Shown: piece by piece, positions 27,327-34,123 of the stretch | How positions within the stretch are numbered: position 1 is the first letter of the stretch | Layout: each line of letters opens with the position of its first letter | Assembly (NCBI GenBank): GCA_021373175.1 | Contig: JAJFTE010000035.1 | Coordinates: forward strand, 1 to 34,411 | DNA: 34,411 nucleotides | From: Actinomycetes bacterium | GTDB lineage: Bacteria; Actinomycetota; Coriobacteriia; Anaerosomatales; Anaerosomataceae | Direction of reading: 5' to 3' | Program-made: the position numbers and the translations under genes | The notes under the pieces: model-generated | The model's database searches: none | What the model saw: only the letters and a program-made list of their open reading frames with translations | Told to the model about the DNA's origin: nothing

Positions 27327-28454
27327 CTACCGCTTCGCGGCCGCAAGCCGCTCGGTAACCAGGTCGCCCATGGCGGCGGTGCCGACCAGTTTCTGCGGCA
27401 GTGTCTCCGCGTCCGCGATGTCGCGTGTGCGCCATCCTTCGGCAAGCACGCTCGCGATGCCCGAGGCGAGCGCGTCGGCAGCCTCATGCATGTCAAAGCT
27501 GTAGCGGAGCATCATCTCCACCGAAAGCAGCATCGCGAGCGGATTCGCGACGTCCTGGCCGGCGATGTCGGGAGCGGAGCCGTGGCTCGGCTCGTAGAGT
27601 GCCGTTCCGTCGCCGAGCGAGGCGCTCGCGAGCATGCCGAGCGAACCGGTGAGCATCGAGGCTTCGTCCGAGAGAATGTCTCCGAACATGTTCTCGGTAA
27701 CGATCACGTCGAACTGTCCCGGCTGACGGATGAGCTGCATCGCGGTGTTATCGACGAGCTGGTCGATGAGCTCGACGTCGGAGAACTCGGCGTCGTGCAG
27801 CCGATGGACGACCTCGCGCCACAGGCGGCTCGATTCAAGGACGTTCGCCTTGTCCACCGAGTGGACCTTCCCGCGACGCTTTCTAGCGGCGTCGAACGCC
27901 GTTGCCGCGATGCGCTCGATCTCGAACTCGCGGTACTCCATGGTGTCGTACGCGCGCATGCCGGGACCGCCGCCGCTCGCTGCGCCCGGCACGCCCGTCT
28001 CACGCGCCCGCGCCCCGAAGTACAGGCCTCCAGTGAGCTCTCGGACGATGAGCATGTCAACGCCAGCCAGATACGCCGGCTTGAGGGTGGACGCTCCGGC
28101 GAGCGCCGAGAAGAGCTTCACCGGCCGCAGGTTCGCGTAGAGCCCGAGCGCCTTGCGTATACCGAGCAGCCCCTGCTCGGGGCGCGGCTTCGCGGGGTCG
28201 GTCGTATCCCACTTCGGGCCGCCGATGGCGGCAAGCAGCACGGCGTCGGCCCCGCGCGCTGCCGCAAGCGTCGCCTCGGGAAGCGGCGAGCCGGTCGCGT
28301 CGATGGCCGCCCCGCCGAGGAGCGCCTCGGCAAACGTGAACGCCATGCCGAAGCGCTCGCCGATGGCGCCGAGCGCCTTCACGGCCTCGGCGGTGATCTC
28401 CGGGCCGATACCGTCGCCCGGAAGAAGGCAGATGTGGCGGGTCGTGCCGCTCAT
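27327..28454 (-). CDS. leuB: 3-isopropylmalate dehydrogenase
   Basis: A 375-residue NAD-dependent beta-decarboxylating dehydrogenase, oxidising 3-isopropylmalate in leucine synthesis. In organisms with citramalate synthase it commonly also oxidises 3-methylmalate. [67 protein letters not shown] and the signature around [20 protein letters not shown], then [13 protein letters not shown], are all intact. It overlaps the leuD stop by four bases. Confidence 0.97.
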
Positions 28455-28945
28455 GCGCCCACCTTCTCGCGCGCGGAGGCCACAAGACCACCCTTCTCGA
28501 TGATGTCTTTGATGAACGGCGGGAACGGCTGTGCTTGGTAGGTCGCGCCAGTCGTCTCGTTCGTGATGACGCCGGAGTCCGCGTCCACCACAACGACGTC
28601 GCCGTTGGTGATGCCGTCAACCGCCTCCGGCGCCTCCATGATCGGTAGCCCGGTGTTGATCGCATTGCGGTAGAAGATCCGGGCGAAGCTCTTCGCGATG
28701 ATCACGCTCACGCCCGCGGCCTTGATGGAGATGGGCGCGTGCTCGCGGCTTGAACCGCAGCCGAAGTTCTCCTCGGCAACGAGGATGTCACCGGGGGCAA
28801 CGGCGCTCACGAAACCGGCGTCGAGGTCCTCCATGCAGTGCTTCGCGAGCTCCTCGGGCACAGATGTGTTGAGGTAGCGTGCCGGAATGATGACATCGGT
28901 GTCGATGTCGCGACCGTACTTGTGGACCGTTCCGCGGAACTTCAC
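28451..28945 (-). CDS. leuD: 3-isopropylmalate dehydratase small subunit
   Basis: A 164-residue swivel-domain subunit of the aconitase-family isomerase that converts 2- to 3-isopropylmalate, and in the citramalate route handles citraconate. [59 protein letters not shown] are typical of the short, archaeal-type LeuD. It starts with GTG behind a strong GGAGG site and is the first gene of this block. The iron-sulfur large subunit LeuC, needed for activity, is not in the window. Confidence 0.96.
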
Positions 28946-29028: not shown

Positions 29029-30693
29029 CTACCGGGCTTCGATGATCGATTGCGCCCGGTCCCAGAGCGCCGTGGCGGGATCAGCCGCGCGTCCTGCGGC
29101 AAGCGCACGCTCCACGCTTGGATGGGGCGTCGATGGCGAGATGGCGTCCAGGGCGACAGCCACCTGAATGCTTCCGATCGCACCGTTCGTGTCCCACGAA
29201 GTCCGCTCCAATACCTCCGATGCGATCCGACCCGCCGTTTGCGCCGAGGAGGGCAGCTCTGCCAGCGACGCGCGCAGTGCATCCCCGCCGAACGCCGGAT
29301 CGGGCCAGCGCTCCCATCGAGCCTCGAGCGGCGTCAGACTCGAACCGCCCACGCGCTGGTCGTTCGCCCAGCCGCGCTCAAGCGCCATAAGCGGCGCCCC
29401 AGCGACCAAGAGCGCCACGGCGGCGATTGTGATGACGGCGGTCGATGCGATTCGCGCTGGAGTCGGGGGGCGACTGTCCTTCTCACCGCAGAGCAGCGCA
29501 CCTATGACGAGCGCAGCTGTGATCGCCGAAAGGGGATCGGTCCATGAGGTCAAGAGCGACACCGCCCAGGCACCAACACCGAGCGCCAGCAGCTTCGGCC
29601 CCGGCCGCGACGACGCGAGCCGCCGGGCAATCCCCTGGCCCGACAGCAGAAGTGCCGCCACGAACGCGCCCAGTGCGACCACACCACCGCCCAGCAGCCA
29701 GTCCAGGAGCACATTGTGCGGACTGTTGGTGGTCTGCCACTGAATCCAGTTGTTGAGCGGTCCCCATGCCACAACGGCCGTAAACCGGTCAGGCCCCTCT
29801 CCGAGAAGAAGGTGGCTAGGCACGCGGGCCCAAGCGCTGTGCCAGATCGCGGGCCGGTCGGTCAAGATGATCCCGAGACCGTTCGTGCCGACCGGCCCCA
29901 GTGCAGCGATAACGAAGACCCCGACCACTGCAGCGAGAAGCACCACCGCGGTGAGCCCCCACAGCGTATGCCGAACACGATGGTCGAGGCGACTCCCGAG
30001 CGTCCAGAGCAAGGCCACCCACACTCCGGCGACGAACGCGATCTCCGCCGACCGTGCGTTCGAAGCAACGAGCGCGAGAACCTCGACGACCGCCATCAGC
30101 CCCGCGACGACGCGCACGCTGCGGACCCGCTCCATCAACACAAGAGCGCTTGTCGCGCCAAGCCCAAGCACGAGAACCTGGCCGAGCGAGATCGAGCTGT
30201 CCATGAGCCCGGCGACTTCCGGCGAGTAGCGCACGGACTCCACGACGTGCGCAGCGTCAAGAAGACCGAAGACCCCGGCAGCTGACCCCATGATCGCAAC
30301 GGTCCAGACTGTCGCCCGGAACTGCCGCCCGCGCGCCAGGCGAGTGCCGACCGCGAACCAGAGCGCCGCGACCGCCCACAACAGCCACCCGTTGTGTTGC
30401 CCAACGACGCCCAAGATGCTCACGAGCGGTGCATAGCCTGTAAGAGCGCCCGCCAACAATGCGGCTAGCCCAAGGCCAGCGGCGGCGAGAACTGCGCGCG
30501 CCTCCGTACCGACGGAGATGCCAGGTACAAGGGTTTGAACGACCAACACCAGTGCTCCAGCGACCAGAGCGGCCAGCACTGCCACTAGCGGCTTGAGCGA
30601 GGCTGGCGCAAGCAGGCACGCGAACCACACGAGTGTGAGACTCATCGGAGCGGCAAGGGTCAACACACGCGGGGGTACGGACGTCGAGTTCAC
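29029..30693 (-). CDS. O-antigen ligase/polymerase-like (Wzy_C) integral membrane protein
   Basis: A 554-residue protein with about ten to twelve hydrophobic segments covering residues 15 to about 440. A large periplasmic or external loop holds TDRPAIWHSAWARVPSHLLL, GEGPDRF and SPHNVLLDWLLGGG. This is the recognised pattern of WaaL/Wzy-type ligases and polymerases, where an Arg and a His in the loop are needed to move lipid-linked glycans. The C-terminal 110 residues are soluble and Ala-rich with a TPR-like feel. The GTG start overlaps the stop of the upstream cytochrome gene (GTGA), so the two are coupled, an unusual pairing. Acceptor is unknown: surface polymer or glycoprotein. Confidence 0.75.
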   Translation of the reverse strand: MNSTSVPPRVLTLAAPMSLTLVWFACLLAPASLKPLVAVLAALVAGALVLVVQTLVPGISVGTEARAVLAAAGLGLAALLAGALTGYAPLVSILGVVGQHNGWLLWAVAALWFAVGTRLARGRQFRATVWTVAIMGSAAGVFGLLDAAHVVESVRYSPEVAGLMDSSISLGQVLVLGLGATSALVLMERVRSVRVVAGLMAVVEVLALVASNARSAEIAFVAGVWVALLWTLGSRLDHRVRHTLWGLTAVVLLAAVVGVFVIAALGPVGTNGLGIILTDRPAIWHSAWARVPSHLLLGEGPDRFTAVVAWGPLNNWIQWQTTNSPHNVLLDWLLGGGVVALGAFVAALLLSGQGIARRLASSRPGPKLLALGVGAWAVSLLTSWTDPLSAITAALVIGALLCGEKDSRPPTPARIASTAVITIAAVALLVAGAPLMALERGWANDQRVGGSSLTPLEARWERWPDPAFGGDALRASLAELPSSAQTAGRIASEVLERTSWDTNGAIGSIQVAVALDAISPSTPHPSVERALAAGRAADPATALWDRAQSIIEAR

Positions 30694-31943
30694 CGCAAGA
30701 GCCTATGCGGCGAGGTCGGACTATGACACAGGAAGCACAACTGCGCTGGTGCGCCATCTTTGACGTGGCAAGCGCAGCCAGCGTCCCAAGGATTCGTCTT
30801 GTGAGACTGCTTCCAATTGGACGGGTGCGCCGTGAACGGTCCGTGGCAACGATAGCACTCTGTGAGCTGGTGACATCTCCAGCAGGCCTGCTTGCGTTCG
30901 AATGCGGCGAGCCGCGCATGACCACCGTGGATGAACTGGCCGGAGTGCGGCATCCGAAGACCGTGACACGTGTCGCACTGGCGGGCCTGGTCGTGGCACT
31001 TGCCACACTGCTTTGGGTCGATGTCCACAAGCGGATATACGACACTCCCCGATCCGATCGTAGCGGTGGCTGATGCCGAGCCCTGCCCTCCCGACCCGGC
31101 CTTGACCGGGCTAGCCAACGGCTGTGTGACATGGCATGTGAGGCAGTCCGAAGAAGCTGACTTCCCGTCGTGGCACACAATGCACGGTGACATCGAGTTG
31201 AGACGTGAGCTACCATGCCCGGCCTTCTGATGGCAGCCGGAACAGGTGCGGCCCGCGTTTAACGGCTCGATGTGCGACATCCTAATACCGTTCGTGGTCG
31301 CCACGCCCTGCAGAACGCCGCGGTGGCATCTCAAGCATGCGCGAGAATCGACCACCGCACCTTGTGGAGCCGTCCTGCGAAGCCGCGACACGGCCATTGA
31401 GGCCCGCCCAAGGAGGTTGCCGGTCATAGAGGCCAGCCCAGGCCGTTCGTGGCATGAAACGCACTTCGCATGATTCAGAGCGGTCGCCTGGATGACCGAC
31501 TCCTCGTTCACGTGACACGTCCTCGCACAATAGGCGTTCGAGCCCGTGATCACATAGCCCGACACCAGCGCGCCGATGACGATGACGAGCACGCCCCAGG
31601 TAGCGATCATCCTGGCCGCGGCGGCAGGGGCCCGAGGCGTCTTGGGCGGCGCCGGCTTCGGCAAAGACAGATCCGGCACGTCGGTGGACGCCGGTGACGC
31701 TTCATCCGCCGTGGCCTTGGGCTCTCCAGCCTCTCTCTCCGCGATCCGGTAGCGGCGAACCCTGACAACCTTGCGCTGCCGCGGCTCGAGCAGCATGAGG
31801 GCGAGCAGAACGATGATCAGCAAGAGAATGGACGCCATAGACGCGACGAGCAGCGTGCGGGCTGGATCCTGCGTGGGAGTGAGGAGCGTGGCCTGAACGG
31901 CGTCGAAGAGCACGCCCAGCTTCTCGAAGATCCCCGAGAACAT
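30690..31943 (-). CDS. Membrane-anchored multihaem c-type cytochrome, ten CXXCH plus two variant motifs
   Basis: A 417-residue protein. A first membrane segment lies at about 30-53, then a basic and Pro/Ala-rich loop (54-110), a second membrane segment (112-133) and an outside domain with the haems. Canonical CXXCH motifs start at residues 161, 203, 234, 254, 267, 313, 323, 354, 363 and 403. There is also CARTCH (139-144, three residues between the cysteines) right after the second membrane segment, and CACH (390-393). Paired motifs with MPH between them repeat as in the preceding gene. The placement of the first sites next to a membrane helix recalls NapC/NrfH quinol dehydrogenases. The ATG at 31943 overlaps the previous stop by one base; the frame above it is not needed. 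Confidence 0.88.
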   Translation of the reverse strand: MFSGIFEKLGVLFDAVQATLLTPTQDPARTLLVASMASILLLIIVLLALMLLEPRQRKVVRVRRYRIAEREAGEPKATADEASPASTDVPDLSLPKPAPPKTPRAPAAAARMIATWGVLVIVIGALVSGYVITGSNAYCARTCHVNEESVIQATALNHAKCVSCHERPGLASMTGNLLGRASMAVSRLRRTAPQGAVVDSRACLRCHRGVLQGVATTNGIRMSHIEPLNAGRTCSGCHQKAGHGSSRLNSMSPCIVCHDGKSASSDCLTCHVTQPLASPVKAGSGGQGSASATATIGSGSVVYPLVDIDPKQCGKCHDQARQCDTCHGLRMPHSGQFIHGGHARLAAFERKQACWRCHQLTECYRCHGPFTAHPSNWKQSHKTNPWDAGCACHVKDGAPAQLCFLCHSPTSPHRLLR

Positions 31944-32902
31944 CAAGGACTCCCGGTCCCGGCAGATGAAGGATTCCTGCCTACACCGGCAAGACCAGGG
32001 TGGACATGTGCCACATGACAGCGGTCGCAGGTCTCGCGAGAGTGGCATCGGCGGCAGACTGGCGCTTCAAAGTCTCCGGCAACTGCGGAATGCGTCTTGA
32101 TGAAACCCGTGGGGTGCGGCATCGCGATGCCGTGGCAGGCATCGCAAAACGACTCGGTTTTATGGCACACAAGACATGCACGCCGGTCAGAGATCGCAAG
32201 CAGTCCGTGCTGCGCTCCGAAGGCGGCGTCGTGCGGCACTGCCGTCTTATGGCAACGGGCACAGTAGTCCTTCGGATGGCAGCCCACACACGAGCCGAGT
32301 TGCCCCATGCCATGAGTGCGCTCCCAGTTCACGCCATGTGTTACTTGCCACGCGCCGACCGCCACCCGTTGCGCGGTCGACTTCTCCGCATGGCACGCGT
32401 CGCACTCAAGAGACGCGCCCCGCATGGTGTGGCACGCGATGCAGCCCTCCATTTGCGCCGAGCGCTTCCAGCGTGTTCGATCGCCATGGGCGACCGTCGA
32501 GTGGCAAGCGTCGCACGACGGGTCGAGGGCGCACGTCGAATGATCAATCCGCAGACCGTCTTTCTCCACGACACCCGACCGTACGACCGCGGCGTGGCAG
32601 CGGATGCACGCCGCGCGTGGAGTCTCGCTCACCGGCCCCGCGACGCCTCGCCCCATGATCTTGGCCGGTTCCATCGTCAGCACCACTTTGGTCCCGAACT
32701 CCAGCCGGCCAGCAATGCCGGGCGCGTGACACGCAAGACACCGGGTGGCCTTATGCGCGGTCTCGCGTTGAGATCGGGCGAAACCGCCATGGCACGCGTT
32801 GCAGGCCCATTGCGAAGATCCAGCAAGACCGCCCGCAATGAACACAGCGACAGCCGCAATCAGGGTCGCCACGACGACGGACACAGTGGGGCGATGCTTC
32901 AT
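31943..32902 (-). CDS. Dodecahaem c-type cytochrome with N-terminal membrane anchor or signal
   Basis: A 319-residue protein with one N-terminal hydrophobic segment (about 7-28), then CNACH almost at once, as in NapC/NirT-type membrane cytochromes. Twelve CXXCH motifs start at residues 34, 55, 99, 130, 154, 167, 205, 214, 243, 253, 283 and 292, about one per 24 residues after the anchor. The last six fall in pairs of the form CXXCH-x4/5-CXXCH followed by PH and a further His, a repeated dihaem unit. Many extra His residues are available as axial ligands. It begins the operon that continues with the next cytochrome and the ligase-like protein. An electron-transfer role across the envelope is inferred. 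Confidence 0.9.
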   Translation of the reverse strand: MKHRPTVSVVVATLIAAVAVFIAGGLAGSSQWACNACHGGFARSQRETAHKATRCLACHAPGIAGRLEFGTKVVLTMEPAKIMGRGVAGPVSETPRAACIRCHAAVVRSGVVEKDGLRIDHSTCALDPSCDACHSTVAHGDRTRWKRSAQMEGCIACHTMRGASLECDACHAEKSTAQRVAVGAWQVTHGVNWERTHGMGQLGSCVGCHPKDYCARCHKTAVPHDAAFGAQHGLLAISDRRACLVCHKTESFCDACHGIAMPHPTGFIKTHSAVAGDFEAPVCRRCHSRETCDRCHVAHVHPGLAGVGRNPSSAGTGSP

Positions 32903-32994: not shown

Positions 32995-33020
32995 TCGAAC
33001 CATTCTGTTGGGTCTCATCA

Positions 33021-33052
33021 AAGAACGGCCCTCGTCGCCGGAGGCCGTTCTC
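33021..33052 (-). terminator. Terminator-like hairpin after the hexahaem cytochrome gene
   Basis: AGAACGGCC and GGCCGTTCT form a perfect 9-bp stem around a 12-base loop, about 30 bases past the stop codon at 33080 and before the next promoter. The T tract on the minus strand is short (TTTGATG), so it may be only partly efficient. Confidence 0.65.
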
Positions 33053-33079
33053 TTCGAACATCAAAGTCAGCTGTACAGA

Positions 33080-34123
33080 CTAGAAGGTGGTGCCGACCGC
33101 GCCATGGCAAAGTAGGCAGTTGCCGTCCGCCGCAGTCTCGATCGGAGCACCGGTATTGCCGATGGTACCGTTAACAGATCCACCGGTAGCGCCCTCGGAC
33201 AGGAAGTACGGATAGCCGCGGGTGTAGTGCGGGAACGAGTTCCACGACACACCAGACTGGTCCACGCCACCGGCGATATGGCAGGCGCGGCACGAGCCGG
33301 AACCGGCAGAAGCGACCTCAACAGCACTGATCGTCACGCCCGAGTTGTGCGTCACAGAGGAGGAGACGACAACATCATTTTCGCCATACTGCGTGGCCGG
33401 ACCACCGTTGGTAGCTGAGAACGCCGTTGACGGAGCCGACACCATCGAGTGCGACCTGCGTTGGGTGGCGGTGATGGTCACGTCAGCCGAACGGCTGAAG
33501 TTCGGGTGGCAGGACGAACAGAATACGCTCTGCTGCTCGTACTTCAGCGTCGAGGCAGTCGCATGAGCCTGGGTATCATACAGACCAGCCGTCGCACCCG
33601 AGCCGCCGATGATCTCGGACTGCGGGGATGAGGGACCGAAAACACTGGGCGTTAGGCGGATGATCTTGGAGATGTTGGCACCCTTGTACGTATTGGCGCC
33701 GTGGACCGCGTGGCAGTTGGTGCAGGCACTGTGGTTGAGGCCAGAGTGGCCGGGACCCATCCACGTTCCGTAGACGCCGCTCGCGCCACCGTAAAGCTGA
33801 ACGCCACCGACTGCGGTGTCGATGTGACAGTACTTGCACGACTCAGCAGCGGTGCTACGGAGCAGCAACTCTGTGGAAGTACCTGCCGTCCAGGGAACGC
33901 CGCCCGTGGTGCCTTCGAAGCTGGCCCCTGGGGCCGCATGAACCGAGTGGCAGACGGCGCACTTCGTGGTGGCCGTCTGATAGTCAGCGTGCGGGCCGTT
34001 GACGTTCGCGCCTGTGCCATCCCATGCAATGTAGGTCGGATTGGGGACATAGGCGAACGCGGTTGCCGCAAAGCCCAGAACGAGCATGGCTGCAAGCGCC
34101 ATTACGAAGAGAGTTCTCTTCAT
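33080..34123 (-). CDS. Secreted hexahaem c-type cytochrome
   Basis: A 347-residue protein with a classical signal peptide (MKRTLFVMALAAMLVLGFAA, then TAFA with likely cleavage after residue 24) and no other membrane segment. Six CXXCH motifs begin at residues 55, 96, 134, 202, 278 and 336. Nine further histidines lie in the mature part, including CXXCHxxH arrangements, enough for six bis-His haems. The rest is rich in Gly, Ser, Thr and Ala with few charges, unlike the two dense cytochromes downstream. The haem number and sparse layout recall extracellular cytochromes such as OmcS, but I cannot show homology. I chose the ATG at 34123 (AAGGAG upstream). An in-frame ATG at 34165 with AGGAGG would add MTNLSSYANYKESV. 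Confidence 0.88.
   Translation of the reverse strand: MKRTLFVMALAAMLVLGFAATAFAYVPNPTYIAWDGTGANVNGPHADYQTATTKCAVCHSVHAAPGASFEGTTGGVPWTAGTSTELLLRSTAAESCKYCHIDTAVGGVQLYGGASGVYGTWMGPGHSGLNHSACTNCHAVHGANTYKGANISKIIRLTPSVFGPSSPQSEIIGGSGATAGLYDTQAHATASTLKYEQQSVFCSSCHPNFSRSADVTITATQRRSHSMVSAPSTAFSATNGGPATQYGENDVVVSSSVTHNSGVTISAVEVASAGSGSCRACHIAGGVDQSGVSWNSFPHYTRGYPYFLSEGATGGSVNGTIGNTGAPIETAADGNCLLCHGAVGTTF

Follow-up and report, generated by a model that had tools for sequence, protein, structure and literature searches.

Specific O-oligosaccharyltransferases (O-OTases) are often encoded beside their own substrates (PMC12645811), and in Geobacter the filaments of OmcS and of OmcE carry glycans (PMC9473688; PMC11077965) and growth on electrodes requires polysaccharide genes, in a study whose title names 'cytochrome anchoring' (PMC5585712). 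Among Gram-positive iron reducers, genes for NHL and TPR proteins adjoin multihaem cytochromes in Dethiobacter (PMC10376724), and cultivated members of the order OPB41/Anaerosomatales carry 17–18 multihaem cytochromes, one of them being an obligate Fe(III) reducer (PMC9686372). Here we describe a Wzy_C membrane enzyme, hereafter LIG, encoded directly behind two multihaem cytochromes, CYT1 and CYT2, in an Anaerosomataceae genome (GCA_021373175.1; draft, 2.15 Mb in 144 contigs). The stretch analysed, referred to as the window, spans 34,411 nucleotides and is an entire contig (C70, JAJFTE010000035.1), ending just upstream of HEX, the gene for a small secreted cytochrome.

We give an even chance to the reading that LIG is an oligosaccharyltransferase-like enzyme dedicated to a multihaem electron-export module, where it would modify an exported partner. 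The genes concerned, together with a hairpin between two of them, are arranged as follows.

33080..34123, (-) strand: HEX, secreted hexahaem cytochrome of 347 amino acids with a signal peptide and 6 CXXCH motifs
33020..33053, (-) strand: 12 bp hairpin with a short U-run, between HEX and CYT1, a possible attenuator or terminator
31943..32902, (-) strand: CYT1, 319 amino acids, N-terminal anchor, 12 CXXCH motifs, AAAGGAG ribosome-binding site upstream
30690..31943, (-) strand: CYT2, 417 amino acids, two hydrophobic segments followed by a multihaem domain (10 CXXCH and 1 CX3CH)
29029..30693, (-) strand: LIG, Wzy_C (WaaL/O-OTase superfamily) membrane enzyme of 554 amino acids with a GTG start and a C-terminal TPR-like domain

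Direct reading of the sequence confirmed the 12-haem, 10-plus-haem and ligase-like genes of the first-pass annotation, as well as their overlaps of 1 base between CYT1 and CYT2 (TGATG at 31943) and 4 bases between CYT2 and LIG (GTGA at 30693..30690). The longest open reading frame (ORF) of CYT2 begins at 32048, but the plausible start is the coupled ATG at 31943. With these overlaps, the single transcript proposed in that annotation is likely for CYT1-CYT2-LIG; it becomes less certain once HEX, the next same-strand gene upstream of CYT1, is included, because a 177-base spacer containing the hairpin separates the two, and expression of HEX may be separate from that of the other three genes. A 75-nt stretch with this hairpin folds at −25.7 kcal/mol; a scan for consensus promoters and terminators did not list it and was uninformative overall.

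The pairing of cytochromes and ligase recurs widely. Profile searches for CYT1 in 69 genomes of the order OPB41/Anaerosomatales (class Coriobacteriia), where the relatives' records are metagenome-assembled genomes, found relatives in 60/69 genomes, often in multiple copies, with 81 CYT1 genes in total. A Wzy_C domain lay within 2 kb of 28 of these 81 genes, against about 1.3 expected if the 317 Wzy_C matches of these genomes were placed uniformly, and within 4 kb of 36. Ligases were searched for with a core-domain profile plus a transmembrane filter; an iterated full-length profile also matched short TPR proteins. Same-strand, immediately neighbouring CYT1 or CYT2 and ligase genes occurred under ten family codes, with gaps of −4 to +45 bases where starts were clear, and in a genome of another family (locus L108) the order CYT1-CYT2-LIG is that of the window, with overlaps of 4 bases (CYT1-CYT2) and 1 base (CYT2-LIG). 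Outside the class, in 20 genomes picked for carrying CYT1, 19 of 37 CYT1 genes had a Wzy_C domain within 4 kb (1.1 expected), often at a stereotyped distance from CYT1, either about 1 kb on the upstream side or about 2.1 kb on the downstream side, and CYT1-CYT2 was flanked on both sides by same-strand Wzy_C genes at G330:C25:394823-399815, G424:C7, G343:C15 and G375:C168. An accident of one genome, which the first-pass annotation had named as a way for its idea to fail, is rejected by this recurrence in many families and beyond the class; chance proximity is rejected by the counts, with the caveat that the genomes are related.

Nor does the pairing belong to one ligase lineage; it spans several. 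A tree of 94 Wzy_C proteins, built with a quick method and carrying Shimodaira–Hasegawa-like approximate likelihood ratio test (SH-aLRT) support only, grouped the window's LIG with L024 (support 99) inside a clade (support 100) made up mainly of ligases from leu loci. Further clades with support of 100 comprised 17 ligases encoded mostly directly after CYT2, 9 encoded nearly all directly before CYT1, and 12, of 704–816 amino acids, encoded mostly beside a cluster of a 14-haem and a giant cytochrome. The label 'operon with CYT1/CYT2' required 10 changes on the tree, 8 of them forced by starred branches, compared with 21.4 after shuffling, and proportions in the tree are biased because closeness to CYT1 guided part of the sampling. 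The source genome itself encodes a 705-amino-acid Wzy_C protein (L043, contig C51) that groups with the 704–816 clade, with no cytochrome on the part of the contig that was read.

At the protein level, LIG matched PF04932 (Wzy_C) at residues 201–345 (E = 2.1e−12; 47.5 bits, curated cut-off 31.7). Its AlphaFold model is good (pLDDT 86.5, pTM 0.89): residues 8–405 match WaaL (7tpg; Z 20.3 over 347 residues, root-mean-square deviation 5.0, 15% identity), and region 439–554, taking in the C-terminal domain (about residues 448–554), matches TPR-type folds. A search of the PDB by sequence with the LIG profile returned a sole match, 9rmk, named as an oligosaccharyltransferase (E = 2.5e−6). R280 and H326 are invariant among aligned relatives and R214 is conserved in most; a helix count that starts with the N terminus in the cytoplasm would place both the R280/H326 loop and the C-terminal domain outside the cell.

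The tail is characteristic of the cytochrome-linked enzymes, 61 of 62 of which extend at least 200 residues past the catalytic histidine, compared with a median of 94 in unlinked Wzy_C proteins. Six long-tailed exceptions were seen among the latter, namely L028, L029 and L030 from the window's clade, L161, and two in L254; cytochromes do lie near L161, and about 10 kb away in L254. Ordinary sugar-cluster Wzy_C proteins of these genomes have no C-terminal extension. Where the first-pass annotation had asked whether relatives of the ligase sit in ordinary capsule clusters, the cytochrome-linked ligases instead fall into clades marked by an additional C-terminal domain, which is missing from the capsule-cluster enzymes.

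LpxC was absent from 21/21 genomes searched, the source genome included, with control genomes positive. Lipid A is therefore not the acceptor of LIG, and a lipopolysaccharide O-antigen ligase acting on it is rejected; of the earlier description as O-antigen-ligase-like, the Wzy_C domain and WaaL fold stand and the literal activity falls. Because of the WaaL fold, the lack of LpxC, the predicted outward TPR-like domain and the repeated placement in cytochrome operons, a dedicated oligosaccharyltransferase or ligase is the simplest explanation.

The haem density of CYT1 is beyond chance, since shuffled versions average 0.14 CXXCH motifs (maximum 2) against the real 12; the protein matched PF14522 (E = 1.1e−6). 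CYT2 combines its 10 CXXCH motifs with CARTCH (CX3CH) and one CACH, and its profile gave weak matches to cytochrome c7 and NrfH (2j7a, E = 9e−4). These CX3CH and CXCH motifs, near 31530–31512 and near 30770, are CXXCH in some relatives and are possible non-canonical or lost haem sites. Neither cytochrome matched PF03264 (NapC/NrfH) in the Pfam search, and the 'NapC style' proposed for them finds weak and partial support in the N-terminal hydrophobic anchors and the NrfH match of CYT2. Haem motifs are invariant among 27 aligned homologues of HEX, which may be the module's extracellular electron carrier; its profile found no sequence match in the PDB, solved filament cytochromes included, and its structure model is too poor to use (pLDDT 48.7).

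Module composition was counted in 49 CYT1 clusters with at least 5 kb of sequence on each side: a TPR protein was present in 44, an NHL protein in 44, a small cytochrome in 44 and an adjacent CYT2 in 43, the small secreted cytochromes carrying 3–8 haems. Glycan genes lay within 7 kb of CYT1 in 10 of 23 clusters with LIG and in 3 of 26 without it (Fisher p = 0.02). At L108, the order is Wzx flippase, GT2, TPR, NHL, 4-haem cytochrome, CYT1, CYT2 and LIG, followed by an opposite-strand GT2; at L157, from another family of the class, it is WZX, GT2, GT4, GT2, one further gene, CYT1, CYT2, LIG, TPR, NHL and a 6-haem cytochrome. L260 runs from a giant cytochrome through a 14-haem protein, NHL and a Rex-type regulator to LIG, and continues with an initiating sugar transferase, GT4, phosphomannomutase and two further GT4 genes. 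The window holds no further glycan gene beside LIG, and the three initiating sugar transferases of the source genome all lie away from the LIG locus.

Several related arrangements were observed in passing. A second conserved cluster (L141, L144, L145, L128, L131) opens with ResB-like and associated membrane proteins of the cytochrome c maturation type and continues, sometimes with a 14-haem protein, through a Rex-type redox regulator to LIG-CYT1-CYT2-TPR-NHL-4-haem-3-haem. Giant cytochrome clusters (L256, L258, L260, L269 and L271, in G002, G011, G016, G015 and G012) reach up to 33 haem motifs per ORF and have a Wzy_C protein of 704–816 amino acids and an initiating sugar transferase at one end. 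Directly after CYT2, L124:11828-13363 and L039:415-1911 encode a membrane protein that contains a domain resembling spermine synthase and in L124 also shows a weak partial Wzy_C match.

In the mechanism that we propose, the membrane-anchored CYT1 and CYT2 would carry electrons outward from the membrane to a small secreted cytochrome, which is HEX in the window, a direction suggested by their anchors, their haem number and the weak NrfH similarity. Glycosyltransferases and Wzx, whose genes lie beside LIG in some relatives and elsewhere in this genome, would synthesise and flip a lipid-linked oligosaccharide. LIG would most likely move this oligosaccharide onto an exported partner within the module, the secreted cytochrome and the NHL protein being the most probable acceptors, and its TPR-like tail would serve as the docking site. 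The attached glycan might shield the surface electron carrier, insulate it or hold it in place; an insulating role has been proposed for the glycans on Geobacter cytochrome filaments. LIG probably O-glycosylates an exported partner, and we infer that the acceptor is a protein, as we do its identity and the purpose of the glycan. The earlier suggestion of a surface cytochrome glycosylated by the ligase agrees with the gene linkage of O-OTases (PMC12645811) and with glycosylated OmcS and OmcE (PMC9473688), and the joint function keeps the conditional standing it was first given; the companion suggestion, an electron path anchored through the cell-wall polymer, may also hold, in which case a wall polymer could be the acceptor.

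Downstream of LIG, the window continues into genes of leucine biosynthesis type, whose names were read from their translations.

28451..28945, (-) strand: putative leuD, small subunit of isopropylmalate dehydratase
27327-28454, next after leuD: putative leuB

Beyond leuB follow an aminotransferase and a cimA-like gene, also named from their translations. In many relatives, among them L077, L035, L080, L083, L084 and L032, the leucine operon is interrupted between leuC and leuD by the electron-export cluster, which has the order TPR-NHL-HEX-CYT1-CYT2 and may or may not include LIG.

Several observations weigh against a dedicated oligosaccharyltransferase. About half of CYT1-CYT2 clusters have no nearby LIG, which is therefore not obligatory, and three ligases of the window's clade have no adjacent cytochromes, one adjoining leuD (G018), one in an apparent ilv/leu region (G056 C24) and one elsewhere (G056 C5). 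The PglL_A and Wzy_C_2 domains of PglL and PglS were not found in LIG, PF04932 alone appearing at E up to 5. The Ser/Thr content of the small cytochromes is no different with and without LIG in the cluster (18.0 v 18.5%), and the chance figures given above assume uniform placement and ignore the relatedness of genomes and are thus too optimistic. Some observations favour the idea that LIG is part of the leuC-leuD locus, with the cytochromes adjoining it only because their cluster sits there too: L029 and L028, of the LIG clade, lie at leuC/leuD or in an ilv/leu region without cytochromes, and in relatives LIG occurs on either strand and on either side of the cluster. At loci other than leu, however, ligases of other clades immediately precede CYT1 or follow CYT2, and linked ligases also occur outside the class, so that such hitch-hiking is already contradicted for the ligase family at large and is improbable for the window.

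A stronger competitor, though still an unlikely one, is that LIG is a Wzy-type polymerase or ligase building a wall or extracellular glycopolymer by which the cytochromes are held non-covalently at the surface, as reported for the Geobacter polysaccharide Xap. The fold superfamily is the same, genes for an initiating sugar transferase, GT4 and PGM adjoin the 704–816-amino-acid ligases of the giant-cytochrome clusters, and the dependence of Geobacter electrode growth on polysaccharide genes (PMC5585712) fits this; yet the ordinary sugar-cluster Wzy_C proteins here have no C-terminal domain, no glycosyltransferase stands beside the window's LIG, and polymer building does not require one-to-one pairing with CYT1-CYT2. 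That same tail, specific to the linked ligases as a long extension and TPR-like in the window's LIG, could instead mark a protein that no longer transfers glycans and uses its TPR-like domain to scaffold the cytochrome complex in the membrane or to assist its assembly; a separate TPR protein is nearly always encoded close by. With the active-site residues R280 and H326 kept in aligned members and glycan genes co-encoded, we see little chance of this.

The fold and superfamily of LIG are already known, and its dedicated pairing with cytochromes and its domain architecture appear undescribed: in the open-access literature (subscription literature being outside the search) we found no report joining an O-antigen ligase with multihaem cytochromes, and a search of open-access literature for oligosaccharyltransferase, extracellular electron transfer (EET) and cytochrome returned archaellum and surface glycosylation in an archaeon only. 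We know of no enzyme assigned to the glycosylation of Geobacter cytochrome filaments, and open-access searches found none. The preferred reading of LIG as a dedicated oligosaccharyltransferase suggests that these mostly uncultured bacteria with iron-respiration-type genes glycan-coat their surface electron carriers, or the surrounding wall, by means of a dedicated enzyme. In its broadest form, that several classes of Actinomycetota possess electron-export modules with their own oligosaccharyltransferase, which O-glycosylates an extracellular cytochrome with the help of an outward docking domain and is a candidate for the type of enzyme that glycosylates cytochrome filaments, the proposal is tentative and somewhat less probable than not. 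Widely conserved, distinct in domain architecture and encoded beside multihaem electron-export genes, this Wzy_C enzyme, in a lineage (Anaerosomatales) that includes a cultivated Fe(III)-reducing member, offers concrete genes for testing the glycosylation or anchoring of extracellular respiratory chains.

Compared with described systems, the module resembles the Gram-positive EET clusters of Dethiobacter, Carboxydothermus and Anaerosomatales in combining secreted and membrane cytochromes, whereas the consulted sections of those descriptions do not mention a Wzy_C enzyme as part of the cluster (PMC10376724, PMC9686372). Geobacter OmcS/OmcE and the Xap polysaccharide likewise associate surface electron carriers with glycans (PMC9473688, PMC5585712), HEX differing from OmcS and OmcE in having no detectable sequence match to the solved filament cytochromes. 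With the O-antigen ligase WaaL, LIG has in common the fold and the R/R/H residues, but it adds a TPR-like domain, predicted to lie outside, in hosts without LpxC. Comparable in organisation are the pilin-specific O-OTases TfpO/PilO, TfpM and PglS, which are also Wzy_C/WaaL-like, adjoin the gene of an exported filament or surface protein and have a substrate suggested by this linkage (PMC12645811); LIG adjoins a multihaem cytochrome module rather than a pilin, again in a host without LpxC, and it carries a C-terminal TPR-like domain and neither the PglL_A nor the Wzy_C_2 domain of PglS.

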